Shown here: positions 1,294 to 10,411 of the stretch, piece by piece
Numbering within the stretch: position 1 is the stretch's first letter
Layout of the letters: each line of letters begins with the position of its first letter
Assembly: GCA_030523345.1 (NCBI GenBank)
Contig: JAUNIR010000015.1
Coordinates: 1 to 38,084 of the forward strand
From: Lachnospiraceae bacterium
Lineage (GTDB): Bacteria; Bacillota; Clostridia; Lachnospirales; Lachnospiraceae
DNA: 38,084 nt
Reading direction: 5' to 3'
Program-made: the position numbers and the translations under genes
The notes under the pieces: generated by a model
Seen by the model: the letters and a program-made list of their open reading frames with translations, nothing else
Told to the model about the DNA's origin: nothing
Databases searched by the model: none

Positions 1294-1644
1294 TTATACT
1301 GCTGTATCCTCTTCGAATGTTTGAAGCATCTTCTTAACAGATGGGGAAACAGATACAAACTGTGCGCCATAATGATAATTTTCTCTATCAATTGCGCTGC
1401 TTCTTACAATTCTCACATCTGTAATAATCTGTGGAAGATTATTTGATACTTCTATATCTGCGATAAAATAATATCCAATTGGAAGAATGCATTTTGAAAT
1501 AAACCCTATTCCATGAGACGAAATATCAGTGACCTGAATTGATGATTCAAGGTCTACTATTGCATCTACCCCGTCTTTATATAAATCTGAAATAGAAAGT
1601 GACATTCCTATTGGTATTCTTTTGTCTATTCTCTTCTCATCCAT
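1294..1644 (-). CDS. PilZ domain protein (putative c-di-GMP receptor)
   Basis: A 116-residue single-domain protein. It carries the two PilZ ligand motifs: an RxxxR motif in the N-terminal stretch KRIDKRIP, and DISSHG, which fits D/N-x-S-x-x-G, about 40 residues later. Beta strands and the closing YGAQFVSVS follow, as in PilZ folds. PilZ domains bind cyclic di-GMP and pass the signal to a partner; this one has no other domain, so any partner must be a separate protein. I start it at the ATG at 1644, which has an AGGAG site eight bases upstream; the same frame extends 14 codons further without a good ribosome site. It is last in the five-gene DUF cluster, 45 bases after the coiled-coil membrane gene, which suggests, but does not prove, that c-di-GMP controls that system. 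Confidence 0.88.
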
Positions 1645-1689
1645 TTTATCATCTCCTGGAAAAAGACTATAAATCAAATTTATCAATTA

Positions 1690-2910
1690 CTATTCATATT
1701 CATCGACTATTCTTAATATGTCCTTTGAATACTGCGGATACTGCTTCACAAGGTTCTCAATTTCATTTTTATATGCATCAAGATTATATACTTCAAAGTC
1801 CATACCTTTACGAAGTCTCTGTCTCTCTATTACAAGCTCGTGCCTTCTTGCAGCCATCTCCTCATCATATACAAGAAGCGCTGGCTGATATACAAACTGA
1901 GCTGGCTCCTTTATTCTATAGCGCTTGATGGCTACATTGAGTTCCTCTCTCAAAATCTCAAGTTGTAAAACTGCATTTTCCGTATGGTGTCTTGCTTCTT
2001 TTTCCTCTAAATATTTTTCATATAAATATTCAAGCTCATGTGAACTATTTATGCCATATTTAGAATATCTGTAGTCTATCGCATTTGTAATATTTACATA
2101 CTTAATCTTTGCAGTGTTTTGAAGAGTTATTGCCCTATTAATCTGCTTACTTAACTTATTAACACTCGCCACAGAATCTCTGTATGTAACAAATATCGCA
2201 GTAAAACAAATAGCCACAATTCCTGTTACACATGTTACCGGCATCTTAATATCAAAATAAAACATGCTTCTAAGCGCAGCAATAACCATATATGCCAAAA
2301 ATGATGCCACAAGACATATAACGAAGCTTGATTTTGAAGATGTGATTCTCTTTTTATTTTCTTTTCTGTCGTATGCCAGACCTGCTTTTTCACCCTCTAA
2401 AAGGTTCATGTCTCTTCGTACTTTAGTCTGGTAGTCTTCGTTTTCTTTTAAGTTCCGTATTATTTCCGGAAGTTCTTTCTCAATTTGCTCCACTTCATGG
2501 TATTTTGACTCAGAAATCTTACTAACCGGTCTTTTATACTTTGCCTCCTGTGCCTCAAAATCAAGAATCTTTTTTGCCTTTTCCCTAAGTTCTTGTCTAT
2601 CAGCTTTAGGTAACGCATCTATTTCTTCCATATCCTGAAGCTTATCTGTCACCTTCTGGTAATCAGTCTTCTTATAATCAACATCAGAACTAGCACCAGA
2701 CATAAGTTCGCATATATGTCTTACATATTGTTCTCTTTCAACCTCATTATGAACGTTTAAATCTCTTCTAAGTAAACTTTCTCCACTAACTGCATCAGAA
2801 ATAGACTTTGCATCATCCCCTTCTAAAGTAAAGTTAGGGAGTTCAAATCCATACTCATCATCGTCTTCAAAAAAGCCTAATTTGTCTAAAATCCAATCAA
2901 AAAAACTCAT
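1690..2910 (-). CDS. Two-TM coiled-coil membrane protein of unknown function
   Basis: A 406-residue protein I do not recognise. It begins with an acidic segment (residues 1-35, MSFFDWILDKLGFFEDDDEY). A charged, probably coiled-coil region follows (about 85-190), then two hydrophobic helices (about 195-217 and 222-243) separated by a very short turn, then a second charged helical region (about 245-405). This gives a helical hairpin in the membrane with both long arms on the same side, probably the cytoplasm. No enzymatic motif is visible and there is no signal peptide. The start lies nine bases after the TPR-like gene and lacks a clear Shine-Dalgarno site, which points to translational coupling. 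Together with its neighbours it could anchor an otherwise soluble complex to the membrane; that role is inference. Confidence 0.8.
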   Translation of the reverse strand: MSFFDWILDKLGFFEDDDEYGFELPNFTLEGDDAKSISDAVSGESLLRRDLNVHNEVEREQYVRHICELMSGASSDVDYKKTDYQKVTDKLQDMEEIDALPKADRQELREKAKKILDFEAQEAKYKRPVSKISESKYHEVEQIEKELPEIIRNLKENEDYQTKVRRDMNLLEGEKAGLAYDRKENKKRITSSKSSFVICLVASFLAYMVIAALRSMFYFDIKMPVTCVTGIVAICFTAIFVTYRDSVASVNKLSKQINRAITLQNTAKIKYVNITNAIDYRYSKYGINSSHELEYLYEKYLEEKEARHHTENAVLQLEILREELNVAIKRYRIKEPAQFVYQPALLVYDEEMAARRHELVIERQRLRKGMDFEVYNLDAYKNEIENLVKQYPQYSKDILRIVDEYE

Positions 2911-2919
2911 ACTAATAAT

Positions 2920-3768
2920 TTATCTAGCACTTCGTGCAATCATCTGTTCTCTGTACTCCTGTTTCCAGGATGCAAAAGTTTTATCTATCTGTGAATAATA
3001 CTCACTTATCCTGCCCTCGGATCTTAATTCTTTTATTTCTTCAATGTCCCTTGTATAGTCGGAATCTACATCCTCGTTTTTAGCACTTGCAAGCCTTTCT
3101 TCAGCTTCTCTTATGATAGAGTCTGCATAACCCATTCGTAACACAAATCTTTCGTAAGCATCTTTTTTCATTATAAGCCTTAAAGACTGAAGATAGTGAA
3201 TTAATAGTTCCTTATCATCACTTATAACCGAAGCCTCTTTAAAGTAATATGATGCTTTGTCATACATAAACATTCTTGCATATGCAACACCAATATTATG
3301 AAGCACTAACGCATACATCTCTGGTTCTTCTGACTTCTTCATTCTATTTAGCATATACTGATATTCATCTATCGCACGGGTATACTTTCTTGCTTCTAAA
3401 AGATTATCAGCTCTCTTCTTTCTTTTTTCAACAAAACTTAGGGACGCATTATCTACTAATACCTGTTTGATTCTAGCAAGTTCATCATCTTCAAGATATC
3501 CTGTCATCTTAAGAAGCTGAGTAACAAATTGTCCAAGAGAAGCGCCTCTATATATAAGAGATTTGAGAGCATCCGCTATGTCAGTAAGACCCAATTCATC
3601 AGCTATAAAATCGCATAATTTATCGTCCATTACATCATTGTCCAGGATATACGCATCCTTGACAAAGTAATAGCAAAGCTCCTCGATAGAATATACATTC
3701 ATACCAAGGCCAACGATGTAGTAAGGATTTTCTGATAATCTGCCCTTGCAGAGAATTAACTTACTCAC
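2920..3768 (-). CDS. TPR-like helical repeat protein of unknown function
   Basis: A 282-residue soluble, helix-rich protein. Residues of about 115-200 read like tetratricopeptide repeats, for example ARKYTRAIDEYQYML, YALVLHNIGVAYARM and YDKASYYFKEASVI, with the usual small/aromatic residue spacing. The N-terminal part (1-105) is a conserved-looking domain starting MSKLILCKGRLSENPYYIV, with no match I can name. TPR modules bind proteins, so an adaptor role is likely. The start is a GTG at 3768 that overlaps the stop of the upstream Hsp70-like gene in a GTGA junction, the classic sign of translational coupling. This ties it to the DUF5716/DUF5717 genes as one functional unit. Confidence 0.82.
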   Translation of the reverse strand: MSKLILCKGRLSENPYYIVGLGMNVYSIEELCYYFVKDAYILDNDVMDDKLCDFIADELGLTDIADALKSLIYRGASLGQFVTQLLKMTGYLEDDELARIKQVLVDNASLSFVEKRKKRADNLLEARKYTRAIDEYQYMLNRMKKSEEPEMYALVLHNIGVAYARMFMYDKASYYFKEASVISDDKELLIHYLQSLRLIMKKDAYERFVLRMGYADSIIREAEERLASAKNEDVDSDYTRDIEEIKELRSEGRISEYYSQIDKTFASWKQEYREQMIARSAR

Positions 3769-5045
3769 AGCTTAAACTCTATATCCCTTTCCCAGACTTT
3801 TCCCGAACTTATATAAAATTCTCCAAATCCTAAGTCTGATATTTTTATATGCATCTTAACGTCTGACTCAAACGTAGCCTCAAGTCTTAATCTTGTTGCC
3901 CTATTTGGTCTATTTGGCAATCCGCCTAGTACTATTTCTTCCGTTCTCTGTCTGCCACCATCAAGAGGTGTAACAATAATATCTACACTATTGCCCTCTT
4001 CCAAAATAAACTCCAATGCATTTTCAGCATCGTACCACGTCTCTCCGGCGTCAACTAAAACAACATATTCTTCCTTGCCATTAACTCTCATTTTAAGGCC
4101 AGAATTTGCCTTAAGTTTGTCTTTTCCAAGGAAAATATGACTCCTATTTATTTCCTTTGGAGCATATTTGTCTGATGCGCAAAAACATGCTCCCTTAGAA
4201 TAAAGATTTTTGCCCTGGAATACATGTCTGCCCATCAGCAAAAAATTCTTAGTATTCTTAAACCAGTCTCCTTCAAATCCTTCCCCAATCAGATATACCG
4301 CTCCTATGCTTCTTCCTGCAAAGTAACTTCTAATTGTCTGAAGAATTAATTCATCAAGACTTTCTTCTTTATTATCAGAGAACTCCTCTCCAATCATAAA
4401 TTTAGGAAGCTTTATATGTTCATATCCTACATAATCTACAAATCCAACTACTGGAGTTGTATTTCTATTCATCCATAACTCGTATGACTTCATATAGTCT
4501 GTAGAATAATCAAAAACCATTACATTGTTCTGCCAAAGATCCGAAGCCTGGTGGATCATGTAATAATAAATGCTTTCATCATATGTCTGAAATACTATAT
4601 TTTCCCTATCGATAGAGACTGCTGCAACTATTTTTTCTAAAATATCAATCATAGTCTGATCAAGATGATCAACAGTAATAACAAGCTTCACAACAGACTC
4701 TGGGTTTACATAAGCAGAAATTATGTTAAGTGAACGTTTGAAGAACAATATTAAAAGATCTATAGGATCGTATGCCTCTCCCTCAATCTCAAGTCTTGCT
4801 CCAGAAATTGCAAAACTAAGCAATTTACCAACAAGAGTTCCGTCACCTCTGTTAGCACAAGTTATTGCCTCTCTACCAAAATACCACTGATTCACACCAT
4901 TTCTTTTACACAAAACAGTAGGAATACCTAGCTTTTCATCATTGCCATCTCCTCCAACTGCTTTAAGTCTTCCATCATGTATTTCAGAAAAACTTATCTG
5001 GCTCACATTTTCATTTAAATCATAACCTATTACGTATTCTGTCAT
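3765..5045 (-). CDS. Divergent Hsp70/actin-fold protein (DUF5716-like)
   Basis: A 426-residue protein that I recall as the DUF5716 family; the domain number is from memory. The sequence has the outline of an Hsp70. Residues 4-17 (YVIGYDLNENVSQI) sit where the phosphate-1 loop would be. LVITVDHLDQTMIDILEKIV resembles the Hsp70 ITVPAYF/RQAT region and is followed by IVFQTYDESIYYYM, in the place of the INEPTAAALAYG helix. VMVFDYSTDYMKSYEL is in the phosphate-2 position, and AVYLIGEGFEGDWF in the adenosine-motif position. The last ~110 residues (EIVLGGLPNRPNRATRLRLE and onward) look like the Hsp70 substrate-binding beta domain. The glycines and acidic residues of the ATP site are partly lost, so ATPase activity is doubtful. 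Its ATG follows the DUF5717 stop by two bases without a ribosome site, so translation is probably coupled. Cytosolic; function unknown. Confidence 0.85.
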   Translation of the reverse strand: MTEYVIGYDLNENVSQISFSEIHDGRLKAVGGDGNDEKLGIPTVLCKRNGVNQWYFGREAITCANRGDGTLVGKLLSFAISGARLEIEGEAYDPIDLLILFFKRSLNIISAYVNPESVVKLVITVDHLDQTMIDILEKIVAAVSIDRENIVFQTYDESIYYYMIHQASDLWQNNVMVFDYSTDYMKSYELWMNRNTTPVVGFVDYVGYEHIKLPKFMIGEEFSDNKEESLDELILQTIRSYFAGRSIGAVYLIGEGFEGDWFKNTKNFLLMGRHVFQGKNLYSKGACFCASDKYAPKEINRSHIFLGKDKLKANSGLKMRVNGKEEYVVLVDAGETWYDAENALEFILEEGNSVDIIVTPLDGGRQRTEEIVLGGLPNRPNRATRLRLEATFESDVKMHIKISDLGFGEFYISSGKVWERDIEFKL

Positions 5046-5047
5046 TT

Positions 5048-8000
5048 TTATACTACATTAAATACTCTCTCAGTAAATGCATCTTCCATAGCATACTCTT
5101 CCATAAGGTCAATAAGTGTTGCTTCATCTCTTAATGTCTTAGCAACAACCATTGAATTAAGTATGTTATATCTTGAATCAACTCCATCATTAACAGTCTC
5201 ATCAATGCTTACAGAATCAGATAACGTAAGGACTTCTCTGCCTCCAACCTCTTCTGTAACGTAATACTGAAGCCTTTCTCCAAAGAAAAGCATAAACTCC
5301 TTAGAGAAAATACCACCAAACATGTTTCTCATTTCTTCAGTCTTATATGTATCGTCCTCGTCATCATCAAGAATATAGTGAAGCACAACCCTTGCCTTAG
5401 GATTAGTACGATATTCAATAAACAAAGCACTCTGGAATGCAGCAAGTTCTGGAACTATTTCCACATACTCTGAGAAAAATTTGAAATACACATTTTTATG
5501 TAAGAATTCTTGGATAAATTCTATAATCATATCCTTAATTCTTTCTGTGATTTCCTTCTCATTATCTGTATAGTACTTAAGAATTGCTAACTTACAGCCA
5601 TCATTTAATGGTTCTCCCTGTCTGTAATTATCTACAATCTTTGTAAAAATGCTCTTATCTGTAATTCTTTCCTTAACAAAATAATCATATGCCGCATATG
5701 ATAAATATGCCATCTCAACTCTAGGTGACGCACCACTTGAAACATAGTCTTCAAATATATATTCTTTCTCACCTACTGTTGTCCTTGTAAAGAGCATCTG
5801 AATAATGAGTTTCTCAGTTAACACATAGCACTGGGTATCGAATGACTTTGCCGCTCTCCACAAATCCCTTAATTCCTTAGTAAGTCCACCATAATTATTA
5901 ACTAAATAATCAATGGTGTTGCCATCATACTTACCATTCTTAAATGCACTATAGGCAATAGCTGTAAGCATAACATCCCTTACACCATCAGTCTTCTCTA
6001 TCATATGTGAGCAAACCTTGACAAGCGACTTGGCTGAAATTAATTCATCACCATAAACAGTTATGAGATCATAAGCCTGATCATACATAGCCCTCTTAAC
6101 ATAGAAATCTATAAGCTCGCCACGCTCTCTTGATGTAAGTTCCGCAACGTTGATGTTAAGAAGGAACTCATCAAGAGTAGAAATCCTGTCTCTATCAAAA
6201 TAATAATGTAAAAGCGACATTCTTATCTCTGACTTAAGGCTTGCCGAAATGCTCTCCGCCTCAACAAGATCTCTACAAAAATCAGCATTCTCTTCTTCAA
6301 CTGAAATATACTGTCTCTTACCCTCACATAAATATAAGAAGAATGGTAAGTTTCCTGTAACATATCTTTTAATTATATGAATGTAATTGTTTTCATTTAT
6401 AATATGCTTTGCTTCCTCGGTCTCCACATAAGTACGCTTACCGGCCTCATCCTCATAGAAGAGTGATACATTCTTAGTATAGATTCTCGGATACGCTCTA
6501 CCGTCATCAATCGGATATACAAATTCATCTACAAACTCATCACACACTACAATGAGATTTTTATACTTTCTGTTATCTGTCCTAATCATTCTGGCAAAAA
6601 TAATAGAAGATAAATTATTAGCCATATTAGGCTTTATAAACTCTGGCAACAAAATATCTTCATAAATCATAGCCAGATGTTCGCTAATATGATTATCCAT
6701 GACCTGCTCAATGGCAAATACTAAAATGTTCTCCCTATTTGACTCATATAGGTCAGGCATTCTGTTTTTATATTTAATCAGATTAGCATATATATATGCT
6801 TTACGTTCATAATCCAGACGATTTTGGAATCCAAAATACATTATTACCGATTTAGGAAGTGCTCCCTCTTCTAACTTAAGGGATGATGAGTATATAAAAT
6901 ATTCATAGAGTTTTGTTATCTTTAACTCTAGCTTAACACCTTCTCTGTACCATTTATGGTACACGTTATCTGTAACATCTGCTCTTATAAGCATTGTACA
7001 TATAGCTTCAACAATTTCCGGATCATTATAAAGACCATATATGTTAATTAATAAATCTAACAGACGTTTTGAAAATTCCCTTTGTCTCAACGCAAGCATT
7101 GAAACTTGGCCAATTATTTCCCCACTTATTTTTCCATTTTTAACAGCAAAATTTAACACCTCAATTTCAAAAGGTGATAGCTTACTAATTATCTGAGGAT
7201 TTGCAACATATACATTGTATGCTTCCACAAATAGAATCGGACTATGAACACCCATTTTTGTTATCTGTTCTATAGCACTTAATTTCTTAGTTGCACTTCC
7301 ACTAAGTTCCTCATCAAGATATATAAGCATCCATAAAAGTGGCATACTCGTAGGATATAACGAATAGTATGATGCTATTCTTGCAGTCACATCATCTACA
7401 TACTGATCTTCTCTTTTTATAAGCGTTGTTAGATACAAATAATAAGCATAGCATTCATCATCATGCTCAATAATTTTCATTTCATTGAATACATGTTCAA
7501 GTATCCACTTAGCTTCACTGACTCTATTCTCCACTAAAAGAAGTTGTGCTTGAAAAAGTCTTGAAATAGGGTTTTTATCATCAAGAAGGTTCATTCTCTC
7601 CACAACCTTCATCGATTCTCTTACCCACCCATTAGTATTCATTTGCTTTGTTCTAAAGCGGACATAACAATTCATTAGCCTGTACTGAAGGAGTTTCGAT
7701 TCCTTCCTTACTGCTCTCTTTGCTTTATCTCCACCTCTTTGCATAGCAATGATTGTTATTGTTATATCATTATTTTTGTTGGATACCTTTATTGTTCCAT
7801 AGTTACGGCCTTCGTGTAACTTGTCATCATCAATTGTAAATACAAGCTTATATTCTGGAGAATTAAAATCTTCATTATGAATATATTCTTTTTCTAAAAC
7901 AATAAAATCAACATCTGTTGAAATCTTTGCCTCTATAAATCCCCAGTTTGATTTCCTTACTAAAAGCTCGCATCTTAACTTAGTTGTTACCTCAGAAAAC

Positions 8001-8602
8001 TCAAAAACATTCTTCTCTACAATGAGTTCTACCGGCTTTTTCTTATTAATGCTACATAGGAAATCCTCCACCGACTGACGATCTCCTTTATTGTTAGAAA
8101 AGCCTCTATATTTCGTAAGGTTAGATTTATCGTTACCATCAAATACTCTTACAAAATCTGGTGTATAGAATATCTGAGTCGCTTCAGTAAAATCAGTCTG
8201 CGCAAGATTCGTAAAATGGAACAAATTACGCACTCCGCTCACTTTGCTATCTTTAGCTGCTGATAAAATTGTAAACTCAAATGGCAAATAATACTCACCT
8301 GCAGAGGATACAATCTGAACATCACCCTTTACTACATCACCAGCCTCAAGACCTGTAGGATCAAAGATATATTCAACAATAAAATCATTTGTATTAAATT
8401 CGGTTTCTCTTACAACAAATCTCATATTTGATGAATAGATAAAACCTTTAACAGGAGTATTTTCCTCTGATGTTATATGAATTGTTCCTTCGTGAATTTC
8501 TTTAGTGCTAAGTTTTACCTCAATTGACTGTACATCAAATAAAAGTTTATCGGTATCATACTCGAAAACTCCATCGACAAGTTTATCAATTATCTCACGC
8601 AA
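5048..8602 (-). CDS. Large beta-sandwich plus helical-repeat protein (DUF5717-like)
   Basis: A protein of about 1184 residues, which I recall as the DUF5717 family found beside DUF5716. The first ~300 residues are rich in beta strands and read like two or three Ig-like/ASH-type sandwiches (for example IEVKLSTKEIHEGTIHITSE). From about residue 300 to the end it is almost all helical, with TPR-like pairs such as SRLFQAQLLLVENRVSEAKWIL, suggesting a long alpha-solenoid. There is no signal peptide and no clear TM helix. I start it at a TTG at 8602 (MREIIDKLVDGVFEYD), preceded by GGTGAG at short spacing. The frame stays open to a TTG at 8656, which would add 18 residues but has poor ribosome-site spacing. 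It is the first gene of the cluster and probably the scaffold. Function unknown. Confidence 0.85.
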   Translation of the reverse strand: MREIIDKLVDGVFEYDTDKLLFDVQSIEVKLSTKEIHEGTIHITSEENTPVKGFIYSSNMRFVVRETEFNTNDFIVEYIFDPTGLEAGDVVKGDVQIVSSAGEYYLPFEFTILSAAKDSKVSGVRNLFHFTNLAQTDFTEATQIFYTPDFVRVFDGNDKSNLTKYRGFSNNKGDRQSVEDFLCSINKKKPVELIVEKNVFEFSEVTTKLRCELLVRKSNWGFIEAKISTDVDFIVLEKEYIHNEDFNSPEYKLVFTIDDDKLHEGRNYGTIKVSNKNNDITITIIAMQRGGDKAKRAVRKESKLLQYRLMNCYVRFRTKQMNTNGWVRESMKVVERMNLLDDKNPISRLFQAQLLLVENRVSEAKWILEHVFNEMKIIEHDDECYAYYLYLTTLIKREDQYVDDVTARIASYYSLYPTSMPLLWMLIYLDEELSGSATKKLSAIEQITKMGVHSPILFVEAYNVYVANPQIISKLSPFEIEVLNFAVKNGKISGEIIGQVSMLALRQREFSKRLLDLLINIYGLYNDPEIVEAICTMLIRADVTDNVYHKWYREGVKLELKITKLYEYFIYSSSLKLEEGALPKSVIMYFGFQNRLDYERKAYIYANLIKYKNRMPDLYESNRENILVFAIEQVMDNHISEHLAMIYEDILLPEFIKPNMANNLSSIIFARMIRTDNRKYKNLIVVCDEFVDEFVYPIDDGRAYPRIYTKNVSLFYEDEAGKRTYVETEEAKHIINENNYIHIIKRYVTGNLPFFLYLCEGKRQYISVEEENADFCRDLVEAESISASLKSEIRMSLLHYYFDRDRISTLDEFLLNINVAELTSRERGELIDFYVKRAMYDQAYDLITVYGDELISAKSLVKVCSHMIEKTDGVRDVMLTAIAYSAFKNGKYDGNTIDYLVNNYGGLTKELRDLWRAAKSFDTQCYVLTEKLIIQMLFTRTTVGEKEYIFEDYVSSGASPRVEMAYLSYAAYDYFVKERITDKSIFTKIVDNYRQGEPLNDGCKLAILKYYTDNEKEITERIKDMIIEFIQEFLHKNVYFKFFSEYVEIVPELAAFQSALFIEYRTNPKARVVLHYILDDDEDDTYKTEEMRNMFGGIFSKEFMLFFGERLQYYVTEEVGGREVLTLSDSVSIDETVNDGVDSRYNILNSMVVAKTLRDEATLIDLMEEYAMEDAFTERVFNVV

Positions 8603-8647
8603 GAAACTCACCACACTTTGTATTGAACTAGATTTAATACTTCCTAC

Positions 8648-8665
8648 TAAGCACAAAAAGGCATA
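8648..8665 (-). other. Five-codon leader minicistron overlapping the DUF5717 frame
   Basis: The best ribosome site in this leader, AGGA five bases before an ATG at 8665, opens a frame reading MPFCA and then TAG at 8648. It overlaps the upstream end of the large DUF5717-like frame, which is offset by one base. A run of five T lies at the crossing point; six T would join this ATG to the long frame. It may be a translated leader, a slippage site or a one-base sequence error. Confidence 0.35.
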
Positions 8666-8734: not shown

Positions 8735-8765
8735 AAAAAAAGCCTCAGTTTCCTGAGGCTTTTTT
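8735..8765. terminator. Strong bidirectional rho-independent terminator
   Basis: A perfect 8-bp stem AGCCTCAG / CTGAGGCT (8741-8748 and 8753-8760) with a TTTC loop, flanked by A runs on the left and T runs on the right, so it works in either direction. Its main role is to end the alanine-rich gene pair just upstream. It also insulates the DUF5717 operon promoter from read-through. Confidence 0.92.
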
Positions 8766-8787: not shown

Positions 8788-9795
8788 TTACTTAAGACCT
8801 GCTGCTGCCTGAGCCTGTACCCATGCTGCATCTACTGCTGTCTTAGCTGCGATTGCATCAAGATTAGCCTGTGCTGCTGCAAGACCTGCTGCTGCCTTAG
8901 CTTCTCTGTCTGCTGCTGCTGTTGCGCATACTGACTTAGCTGCATCAATTGCTGCCTGACCTGCTGCGATACCTGCTGCTGCCTTAGCATCTCTATCTAC
9001 TGCTGCTGTTGCACATACTGACTTTGAAGCGTCAAGTGCTGCCTGTGCTGCTGCAACGCCAGCTGCTGCCTTAGCGTCTCTGTCTGCTGCTGCTGGAGCG
9101 ATTGCTGCCTTAGCTGCATCAAGTGCTGCCTGTGCTGCTGCAATACCAGCTGCTGCCTTAGCATCTCTGTCTGCTGCTGCTGGAGCGATTGCTGCCTTAG
9201 CTGCATCGATTGCTGCCTGTGCTGCTGCAATACCAGCTGCTGCCTTAGCGTCTCTGTCTACTGCTGCTGTTGCGCAAGCATCCTTAGCTGCATCAAGTGC
9301 TGCCTGTGCTGCTGCGATACCAGCTGCTGCCTTAGCGTCTCTGTCTGCTGCTGCTGGAGCGATTGCATCCTTAGCTGCGTCAAGTGCTGCCTGTGCTGCT
9401 GCAATACCAGCTGCTGCCTTAGCATCTCTGTCTACTGCTGCTGTTGCACATACTGACTTTGAAGCGTCAATTGCTGCCTGTGCTGATGCAACGCCAGCTG
9501 CTGCCTTAGCGTCTCTGTCTGCTGCTGCTGGAGCGATTACTGCCTGTGCTGCATCAAGTGCTGCCTGTGCTGATGCAAGACCAGCTACTGCCTTAGCATC
9601 TCTGTCTGCTGCTGCTGGAGCAATTGCTGCCTGTGCTGCATCAAGTGCTGCCTGTGCTGATGCAAGACCAGCTGCTGCCTGTGCCTGTACCCATGCTGCG
9701 TCTGAAGCTAAATCAGCCTTAACTGGAACAGCTACTGTTGCAACTGCAACTGTTGCAGCCATAATACCTGCTAATAATTTTGAAATACGTGACAT
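8788..9795 (-). CDS. Secreted alanine-rich 29-residue-repeat protein
   Basis: A 335-residue protein of unknown function. It has a Sec signal peptide (residues 1-27, hydrophobic core after MSRISKLLAG, likely cut after VKA). The mature part is about half alanine and consists of nine near-identical 29-residue repeats (residues 40-300) plus a divergent tenth. Each repeat starts AAAG and ends DRDAK. Two versions alternate: one with Ala-Pro in the middle (IAPAAADRDAK) and one with Cys-Ala-Thr (VCATAAVDRDAK). The array is bounded at both ends by DAAWVQAQAAAGL, which holds the only tryptophans. The pattern fits long amphipathic or alanine-zipper helices on the cell surface or in the medium. There is no LPxTG, SLH or lipobox anchor. 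An AGGAGG site lies seven bases before the ATG. It is the second gene of a pair with the paralogue at 9848-10411. Not a known family to me. Confidence 0.85.
   Translation of the reverse strand: MSRISKLLAGIMAATVAVATVAVPVKADLASDAAWVQAQAAAGLASAQAALDAAQAAIAPAAADRDAKAVAGLASAQAALDAAQAVIAPAAADRDAKAAAGVASAQAAIDASKSVCATAAVDRDAKAAAGIAAAQAALDAAKDAIAPAAADRDAKAAAGIAAAQAALDAAKDACATAAVDRDAKAAAGIAAAQAAIDAAKAAIAPAAADRDAKAAAGIAAAQAALDAAKAAIAPAAADRDAKAAAGVAAAQAALDASKSVCATAAVDRDAKAAAGIAAGQAAIDAAKSVCATAAADREAKAAAGLAAAQANLDAIAAKTAVDAAWVQAQAAAGLK
8809..9678 (-). repeat. Tandem 87-bp coding repeats (ten units)
   Basis: Ten back-to-back 87-bp units inside the alanine-rich gene, each encoding one 29-residue repeat; nine (8896-9678) are close copies and the tenth has diverged in its second half. 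The units are in frame with no spacer. Third-base differences are scattered between units, so the array is not a very recent expansion. It should be prone to copy-number change by recombination or slippage. Confidence 0.9.
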
Positions 9796-9847: not shown

Positions 9848-10411
9848 TTAGTGTAAACCAGCTGCTGCCTGTGCCTGTACCCATGCTGCATCTGCTGCTG
9901 TCTTAGCTGCGATAGCATTAAGGTATGCCTGGCCTGATGCCATTCCTGCTGCTGCTTCAGCTGCAAGCTCCTGCTGACGTGCAATTGCAGCTGCCATACC
10001 TGCTGCTGCCTGTGCATCTCTTGCTGCTGCTGCATTGATGCATGTTGCCTGTGCTGCACTAATAGCTGCCTGATTTGCTGCCATTCCTGCTGCCGCCTGT
10101 GCTTCTCTTGTATTTGCAGCATTCACACATGTTGCCTGTGCTGCATCGAGTGCTGCCTGGCCTGATGCCATTCCTGCTGCTGCTGCCTTAGCGATATCCT
10201 CCTGATGAGCGACTGCTGCTGCCATTCCTGCTGCTGCCTGTGCTTCAACTGCAGCCTTATCCTTAGCTGCCTGTTCTGCAAGCTGCTGAAGGTATGCAAG
10301 ACCTGCATTAAGACCGTCTGAAGCTGCATCTGCCTTAACTGGCATGATTGTTACTGATGCAACAATAGCTGCGATAACTATTCCTGAAACAATTTTTGCA
10401 ATACGTGACAT
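9848..10411 (-). CDS. Secreted alanine-rich repeat protein, paralogue
   Basis: A 187-residue relative of the neighbouring 335-residue protein and the first gene of the pair. The signal peptide (MSRIAKIVSG..., likely cleavage after VKA at residue 28) is nearly the same, and the C-terminus is the same block, IAAKTAADAAWVQAQAAAGLH. The repeats are fewer and more varied. AAAG recurs at residues 59, 77, 106, 135 and 153, spacings of 18, 29, 29 and 18, so the units are 29 or 18 residues long. There are two cysteines, at 95 and 124, one repeat apart. Methionine follows AAAG here where its sister has Ile, Val or Leu. It has a GAGGAGG ribosome site. The gap to the second gene is 52 bases with no terminator. 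Function unknown; a secreted helical surface or matrix protein is the most I would infer. Confidence 0.83.
   Translation of the reverse strand: MSRIAKIVSGIVIAAIVASVTIMPVKADAASDGLNAGLAYLQQLAEQAAKDKAAVEAQAAAGMAAAVAHQEDIAKAAAAGMASGQAALDAAQATCVNAANTREAQAAAGMAANQAAISAAQATCINAAAARDAQAAAGMAAAIARQQELAAEAAAGMASGQAYLNAIAAKTAADAAWVQAQAAAGLH

Follow-up and report, generated by a model that had tools for sequence, protein, structure and literature searches.

The question raised by the stretch of DNA analysed here (Lachnospiraceae bacterium, contig JAUNIR010000015.1, positions 1 to 38,084; this whole stretch of 38,084 nt is called the window) is what a compact run of five genes on its minus strand might do. 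An earlier note had seen in them a membrane-attached assembly or chaperone machine of five parts, tuned by cyclic di-GMP (c-di-GMP). The comparisons described below point to a smaller unit. On balance, they favour the view that the order has a dedicated Hsp70-type complex whose core is encoded among the window genes, in a Lachnospiraceae form that would lack the ATP-driven part and would act as a holdase or scaffold. The features concerned are:

5048..8614, minus strand: BIG, the DUF5717 protein, 1188 amino acids (aa) from GTG 8614; the open reading frame (ORF) opens at 8656
3765..5045, minus strand: pseudo-Hsp70, the DUF5716 protein, 426 aa; predicted actin-type nucleotide-binding domain (NBD) and beta part of the substrate-binding domain (SBD-beta), without lid and without catalytic lysine
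2920..3768, minus strand: TPR protein, 282 aa; conserved N-terminal domain with a PY...VYS.EE motif, weak TPR matches
1690..2910, minus strand: CC, 406 aa; predicted hairpin of two transmembrane (TM) stretches with coiled-coil-like flanks (alignment and TM estimate made on orthologues)
1294..1644, minus strand: PilZ-domain protein, 116 aa from ATG 1644 (Pfam PilZ, 2.6e-5); a neighbour, not a conserved component
8736..8765, minus strand: terminator-like hairpin that precedes BIG and closes the upstream unit

The family assignments made in the earlier note for the first two genes were borne out. BIG matched Pfam DUF5717_N (7e-270, 898.1 bits) and DUF5717 (3e-99, 332.4 bits; PF18983/PF18984), the cut-off being 25 bits, and the second protein matched DUF5716_C (PF18980; 5e-99, 331.5 bits, cut-off 34.7). 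The survey of DUF5716/DUF5717 neighbourhoods that the note had proposed showed the core genes to be conserved neighbours. A scan of a named collection gave at least 591 pattern matches, 538 of those listed encoding relatives of BIG, and the best 80 were used. Most titles in this sample indicated Lachnospiraceae (taken here to include Kineothrix alysoides, Acetatifactor muris and Parablautia intestinalis), a few were vaguer, and one (L209) read Muribaculaceae. The order and strand of BIG-DUF5716-TPR-CC were kept in 74 of the 80 loci, with median gaps of 13–18 bases, a conservation far above chance; five of the six exceptions reached a contig end, and the sixth (L188) had DUF5716 as two ORFs. 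The four genes were also present in all 13 other loci of the window genus. The locus titled Muribaculaceae bears a Lachnospiraceae-type operon, and is probably mislabelled or part of a mixed bin.

With each genus represented by a single genome of at least 90% completeness, DUF5717_N was found in 148 of 150 Lachnospiraceae. BIG, DUF5716 and TPR stood in order in all of 38 further genera, hand-picked from this 150-genus set, and CC was detected in 16 of them. A search for CC elsewhere in 25 genomes without it gave no profile match in 23 and short marginal ones (4e-4) in two; the same profile found four of four positive controls. Since CC was detected in only 16 of 38 genera and had no strong match elsewhere, the minimal set common to Lachnospiraceae consists of BIG, DUF5716 and TPR, with CC as a variable part. 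The earlier note had counted CC as a regular member, which its lack of detection at the locus in 22 of the 38 genera does not support.

Beyond the family, DUF5717_N and DUF5716_C exceeded their cut-offs in the same 16 of 391 genomes of the class; the order outside Lachnospiraceae amounted to three genomes among the matches listed, so that this sample covers the limits of the distribution thinly. Outside the order, the C-terminal part of BIG (BIG-C) gave seven weak, short matches in these 391 genomes (6.6e-9 to 2.1e-4), presumed to be chance matches to helical repeats; a weak DUF5716_C match in G355 and a weak DUF5717_N match in G155 are likewise presumed to be due to chance. Within the order, DUF5716_C matched 142 of 295 genomes, 48 of them Lachnospiraceae; some of the other 94 may have matched through Hsp70-B (see below), which also scores with DUF5716_C. 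A Lachnospiraceae-type DUF5716 (3.9e-94) was seen in a genome whose label places it in a different family (f8; G563:C40:2962-3861), by transfer or misplacement.

In the other families of the order, presumably Lachnospirales, the core genes were part of a larger collinear locus: BIG-N, BIG-C, Hsp70-A, a GrpE-domain protein, DUF5716, Hsp70-B, Hsp70-C, TPR and, in some (L044, L046, L257), CC. A full Pfam scan was made for one such locus, L046 (nine proteins, with the 25 best of 32 families listed for TPR). HSP70 was matched by Hsp70-A (2e-77), Hsp70-B (2.5e-57) and Hsp70-C (2.5e-95), and the GrpE domain (1e-14) lay at the C-terminal end of its protein. The separate BIG-N (∼400 aa) corresponded to the N-terminal ∼300 aa of the window BIG (in L046, to DUF5717_N 8-305), and the separate BIG-C (∼900 aa) to the remainder; a BIG-C profile recovered the window BIG at 4e-86. 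Split homologues were seen in L044 and L046, and the two parts were joined in one protein in Lachnospiraceae and also in L125, L136, L257 and L258. Apart from DUF5717_N, a BIG-N profile search gave weak, scattered matches only, and a search of Protein Data Bank (PDB) sequences with the Lachnospiraceae BIG profile gave nothing up to E 1.

Gene order was identical in the 25 stretches of the larger locus, which were chosen from DUF5716 matches. The set was complete in 17, a count that includes the four loci with a joined BIG and L044, in which Hsp70-C and TPR are each split over two ORFs. The incomplete stretches met contig or stretch ends, or lacked members: BIG was not found in stretches L126, L130 and L131, and stretch L132 showed neither Hsp70-C nor TPR, an Hsp70-C-sized gene lying on another contig of that genome. 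Order was also kept in the partial loci L047–L050 (L047 and L048 come from the same genome, on separate contigs), and in L121 despite inserted unrelated genes.

Several side observations concern these loci. Across L045, L046 and L119–L138, the lidless Hsp70-A, -B and -C had median identities of 73–76%, and the other locus proteins measured 24–36%. In L046 (12517-14676), SBD-beta of Hsp70-C is followed by a VWA domain that contains a metal-site-like DTTGSM motif. Three ORFs, lipoprotein-like by eye, lie between the GrpE-domain gene and DUF5716 in L138 (3914-8704). In family f16 the locus is reduced to BIG-N, BIG-C and DUF5716 (L050:5816-10915), which suggests a minimal pair. In four Lachnospiraceae loci (L269–L272; G798, G711, G754 and G770), BIG is shortened to ∼1100 aa, the DUF5717_N match ending near profile position 748-779.

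The proposal that the DUF5716 protein is a divergent Hsp70 was confirmed by a chain of homology together with a predicted fold. The Lachnospiraceae proteins were linked to DUF5716 of other families and to Hsp70-B; the L046 member matched DnaK structures (E 4e-10, residues 35-506) and Pfam HSP70 (1.9e-16). A full Hsp70 fold was predicted for the DUF5716 protein (comparison by VIA-align), with an actin-type NBD followed by SBD-beta, as in the Hsp70 superfamily. In the tree, both DUF5716 groups formed one clade (support 1.0), joined with Hsp70-B at 0.993. A single-protein contig scan with DUF5716 gave 10 stretches matching the pattern, none of them a relative.

The residues of the ATPase site set this protein apart from a canonical Hsp70. 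With numbering and roles assumed to be those of E. coli DnaK, Lys70 was present in Hsp70-A (22/22), Hsp70-B (25/25) and Hsp70-C (20/21, with one gap), and in none of the 26 DUF5716 proteins from other families or the 26 from Lachnospiraceae (two gaps). Thr199 was found in none of the former and one of the latter. The idea that the Hsp70-like protein acts as an ATP switch is therefore not supported, the catalytic lysine being absent from all 26. The lid (SBD-alpha) was missing too: the locus Hsp70s have median lengths of 9–21 aa after SBD-beta (13–19 residues in Lachnospiraceae DUF5716), versus 159 in DnaK. Retained in SBD-beta were the invariant positions Trp337, Arg385, Asp404, Gly406 and Gly408.

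No orthologues of Hsp70-A, -B or -C were found in any of 20 Lachnospiraceae genomes, all of which contain DnaK. At E 1e-20, 14 of these had DnaK alone and six had extra Hsp70 genes or fragments; the ten extra pieces fetched scored best with DnaK, at no more than 239 bits versus at least 860 for true A, B or C. The window genome holds one full Hsp70 (dnaK), one partial match (1.9e-15, in a 337-aa frame), and one GrpE, adjoining dnaK. In other families, nine of nine genomes held A, B and C in addition to DnaK, the assignment being based on position and size. The three genes would have been lost in Lachnospiraceae rather than gained elsewhere, because L044, whose DUF5716 is nearest to that of Lachnospiraceae, still has the larger locus. 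About an even chance is given to a wider scenario, in which a second Hsp70 machine arose in the lineage, lidless and made up of four paralogues on a large scaffold (three ATPase-intact and ∼75% identical, one dead). Lachnospiraceae would then have shed the three ATPases together with the protein that bears the GrpE domain, the dead subunit becoming a near-universal, ATP-independent core, pseudokinase-like and convergent with yeast Ssz1.

The window TPR protein gave Pfam TPR matches below the curated cut-offs; its N-terminal motif PY...VYS.EE recurs in its counterpart from the larger locus. DUF5716 and TPR are fused in two genera (L256, 709 aa; L274, 684 aa), and these natural fusions point to DUF5716-TPR as the first interaction to consider. 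The membrane hairpin described earlier was borne out in CC orthologues, which have two predicted TM stretches with starts ∼20–32 residues apart (L248 has one); this estimate covered the orthologues of the window's CC. Against the PDB, CC matched generic coiled coils (best 0.004).

The fifth protein passed the Pfam PilZ cut-off (2.6e-5) and contains RxxxR and DxSxxG, presumably the PilZ motifs. Within the window genus a PilZ gene was found in nine of 13 loci, oriented against the operon in all nine and at a distance of 6 kb in L038; of the others, L033 ends at CC and L040–L042 had none in the stretch covered. It was also found in 14 of the 80 named loci and nine of 52 further loci (partly the same contigs), always on the opposite strand; the profile used for these counts excludes a 302-aa ORF that in part runs antisense to the lyase gene downstream. 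PilZ occurred solely in loci with a BIG at least 47% identical to the window's (47–52% in the 14 named loci), and its co-directional placement is an exception peculiar to the window. This opposite orientation and narrow distribution speak against PilZ as a core component, and leave c-di-GMP tuning unsupported. The single system of the earlier note thus stands as regards the core unit and falls as regards PilZ.

The layout of the five ORFs was as first described: tightly packed between 1294 and 8656, all on the minus strand, with a TAA-AA-ATG junction, a GTGA overlap and a nine-base gap. No clear Shine-Dalgarno sequence precedes DUF5716, TPR or CC, in agreement with the claim that three genes lack their own ribosome site; the co-translation drawn from it need not extend to PilZ. 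This gene more likely starts at ATG 1644, 45 nt past the CC stop, behind its own Shine-Dalgarno-like site (CCAGGAGATGATAAAATG), and therefore need not be co-translated. For BIG, GTG 8614 seems a likelier start than TTG 8656, chosen previously, because DUF5717 of relatives opens at VV..LREIVDKL-like residues.

How such a complex might work can be outlined as follows. BIG, with a beta N-terminal part and a long, presumably helical part, would be the scaffold, a role for the 1.18 kaa (thousand-aa) protein already put forward in the earlier note and judged plausible. The pseudo-Hsp70 would bind BIG and, with no ATPase cycle, would use its altered SBD-beta to hold a peptide stretch belonging to a client or partner. 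The TPR protein would dock on the pseudo-Hsp70, and CC, where kept, would tie the complex to the membrane. The whole would serve as a holdase or assembly scaffold that needs no ATP, clients possibly passing from it to the housekeeping DnaK, much as nascent chains in yeast pass to Ssb from Ssz1, which is lidless and does not hydrolyse ATP.

Several points weigh against this reading. The link between Lachnospiraceae DUF5716 and Hsp70 runs through intermediates and a predicted fold: alignment with Hsp70-A by hhalign gave a 2.4% probability, and the profile of the Lachnospiraceae DUF5716 found nothing among PDB sequences up to E 1. In the tree, neither Hsp70-B (0.51) nor other-family DUF5716 (0.73) was well supported as a single group. 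Lachnospiraceae DUF5716 keeps Asp8 in 26/26 and Asp194 in 22/26 (Thr199 in one row), so that nucleotide binding is possible; in other families, Glu171 and Thr11 are each kept in 5/26. The binding of pseudo-Hsp70 to BIG is suggested by gene order, the SBD-beta groove may be closed or filled by a structural partner only, and the direction of change (loss, not gain) is deduced. No J-domain match was found among the proteins scanned (the window core and the nine of L046).

The likeliest alternative, though itself unlikely, is a static structural or cytoskeletal scaffold, in which the actin-fold pseudo-Hsp70 and BIG would form a fixed or polymeric assembly (for envelope, division or shape), with the SBD-beta groove filled by a partner. 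The loss of the catalytic lysine, the large and fast-evolving BIG (median BIG-C identity 24% in other families) and the membrane hairpin found in some members would suit such an assembly, but SBD-beta is kept with its invariant positions, and kinship to a locus that combines three Hsp70s with a GrpE domain suggests a role in protein handling. Somewhat less likely again is an adaptor that recruits the housekeeping DnaK/GrpE to particular clients, replacing A, B and C. The 20 Lachnospiraceae genomes with DnaK and without A, B and C agree with it, as does the single GrpE beside dnaK in the window genome; the four core proteins, however, gave no J-domain match, and no sign of DnaK contact was seen. 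It is improbable that the unit derives from the HSP70/GrpE theme of the GAP1-N2 GTPase conflict systems, as a defence or cell-suicide switch. As those systems are described (PMC7159879), Hsp70, GrpE, an Hsp70 variant, TPR, a beta-rich protein, VWA and a TM protein are common to both, but GTPase, GAP1 and effector families are absent from the Pfam matches listed for L046, and the unit is near-universal in Lachnospiraceae (148/150). In PADLOC, run with ten proteins, the five window proteins had no matches and the three L046 Hsp70s matched PDC-M61B (4e-5 to 5.5e-9). Least probable is a c-di-GMP-tuned five-gene machine, since the detected PilZ domain, co-directional in the window genome alone, has its own ribosome-site-like sequence and lies on the opposite strand in the nine genus and 14 named loci that bear it.

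The favoured reading, an Hsp70-type core without its ATP-driven part, makes of DUF5717 (found in nearly every genus sampled from a large family of gut bacteria) and DUF5716 a testable hypothesis, that of an Hsp70-derived complex without an ATPase cycle. Families with the large and the small locus offer a natural experiment on a pseudo-Hsp70 deprived of active partners.

As for the surroundings, two weaker hairpins on the same strand as the terminator at 8765-8736 fall within genes (7176-7157 and 4032-4014), and the hairpin scan of the window listed none between CC and the gene downstream of PilZ. That gene matches Pfam Lyase_1, is presumably purB, and may share a transcript with the operon. 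In the window group it takes the place of a valyl-tRNA-synthetase-type gene, a common downstream neighbour elsewhere (L044 and L046 by Pfam; L251, L252, L262, L273, L275 and L277 by start sequence). On the other side lie two adjacent alanine-rich proteins (8788-9795 and 9848-10411) with N-termini signal-like by eye and no Pfam match, both consisting of tandemly repeated 87-bp units (9.4 copies with 86% matches, and 2.2 copies with 81%); L051 has a relative of both ∼6.5 kb from its operon. Nothing exceeded the NCBIfam cut-offs among seven window proteins scanned.

Among known systems, the window proteins are members of Pfam DUF5717 and DUF5716_C far above the cut-offs. The descriptions of these families give no function, and none was found for either in the open-access literature, where DUF5716 is mentioned in a single article on another subject and DUF5717 in none; the kinship to Hsp70 and the larger locus are results of the present analysis. 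Compared with DnaK/GrpE/DnaJ, Hsp70-A, -B and -C keep the ATPase residues checked and a GrpE-type C-terminal domain is present, but all four locus Hsp70s lack the DnaK-type lid, their interdomain linker differs, and no DnaJ match was found among the proteins scanned. Yeast Ssz1 is lidless, binds ATP without hydrolysing it, has a complete SBD-beta and helps hand nascent chains to Ssb (PMC7083937). The likeness to Ssz1/Zuo1, the yeast ribosome-associated complex, is one of build and mechanism, not of orthology or membership: the protein described here is bacterial, is encoded next to BIG and TPR, and in Lachnospiraceae has no active Hsp70 at its side; no DnaJ family was matched by the window core or L046 proteins. 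Among the open-access papers listed on Hsp70/GrpE/VWA/TPR neighbourhoods, degenerate Hsp70s and Lachnospiraceae, none was recognised as dealing with this locus; one related theme came up, the HSP70/GrpE neighbourhood of the GAP1-N2 systems (Kaur et al. 2020, PMC7159879). Those systems contain GTPase and GAP1 genes, families not listed for the nine L046 proteins; the extra Hsp70 described here keeps SBD-beta, lacks the catalytic lysine and is near-universal, not accessory, in Lachnospiraceae. In that article, the neighbourhood comprises HSP70, GrpE, an extra HSP70 variant, and FNIII or TPR proteins; with HSP70, GrpE, HSP70 variant and TPR proteins common to it and to the larger locus, it is the closest published theme.

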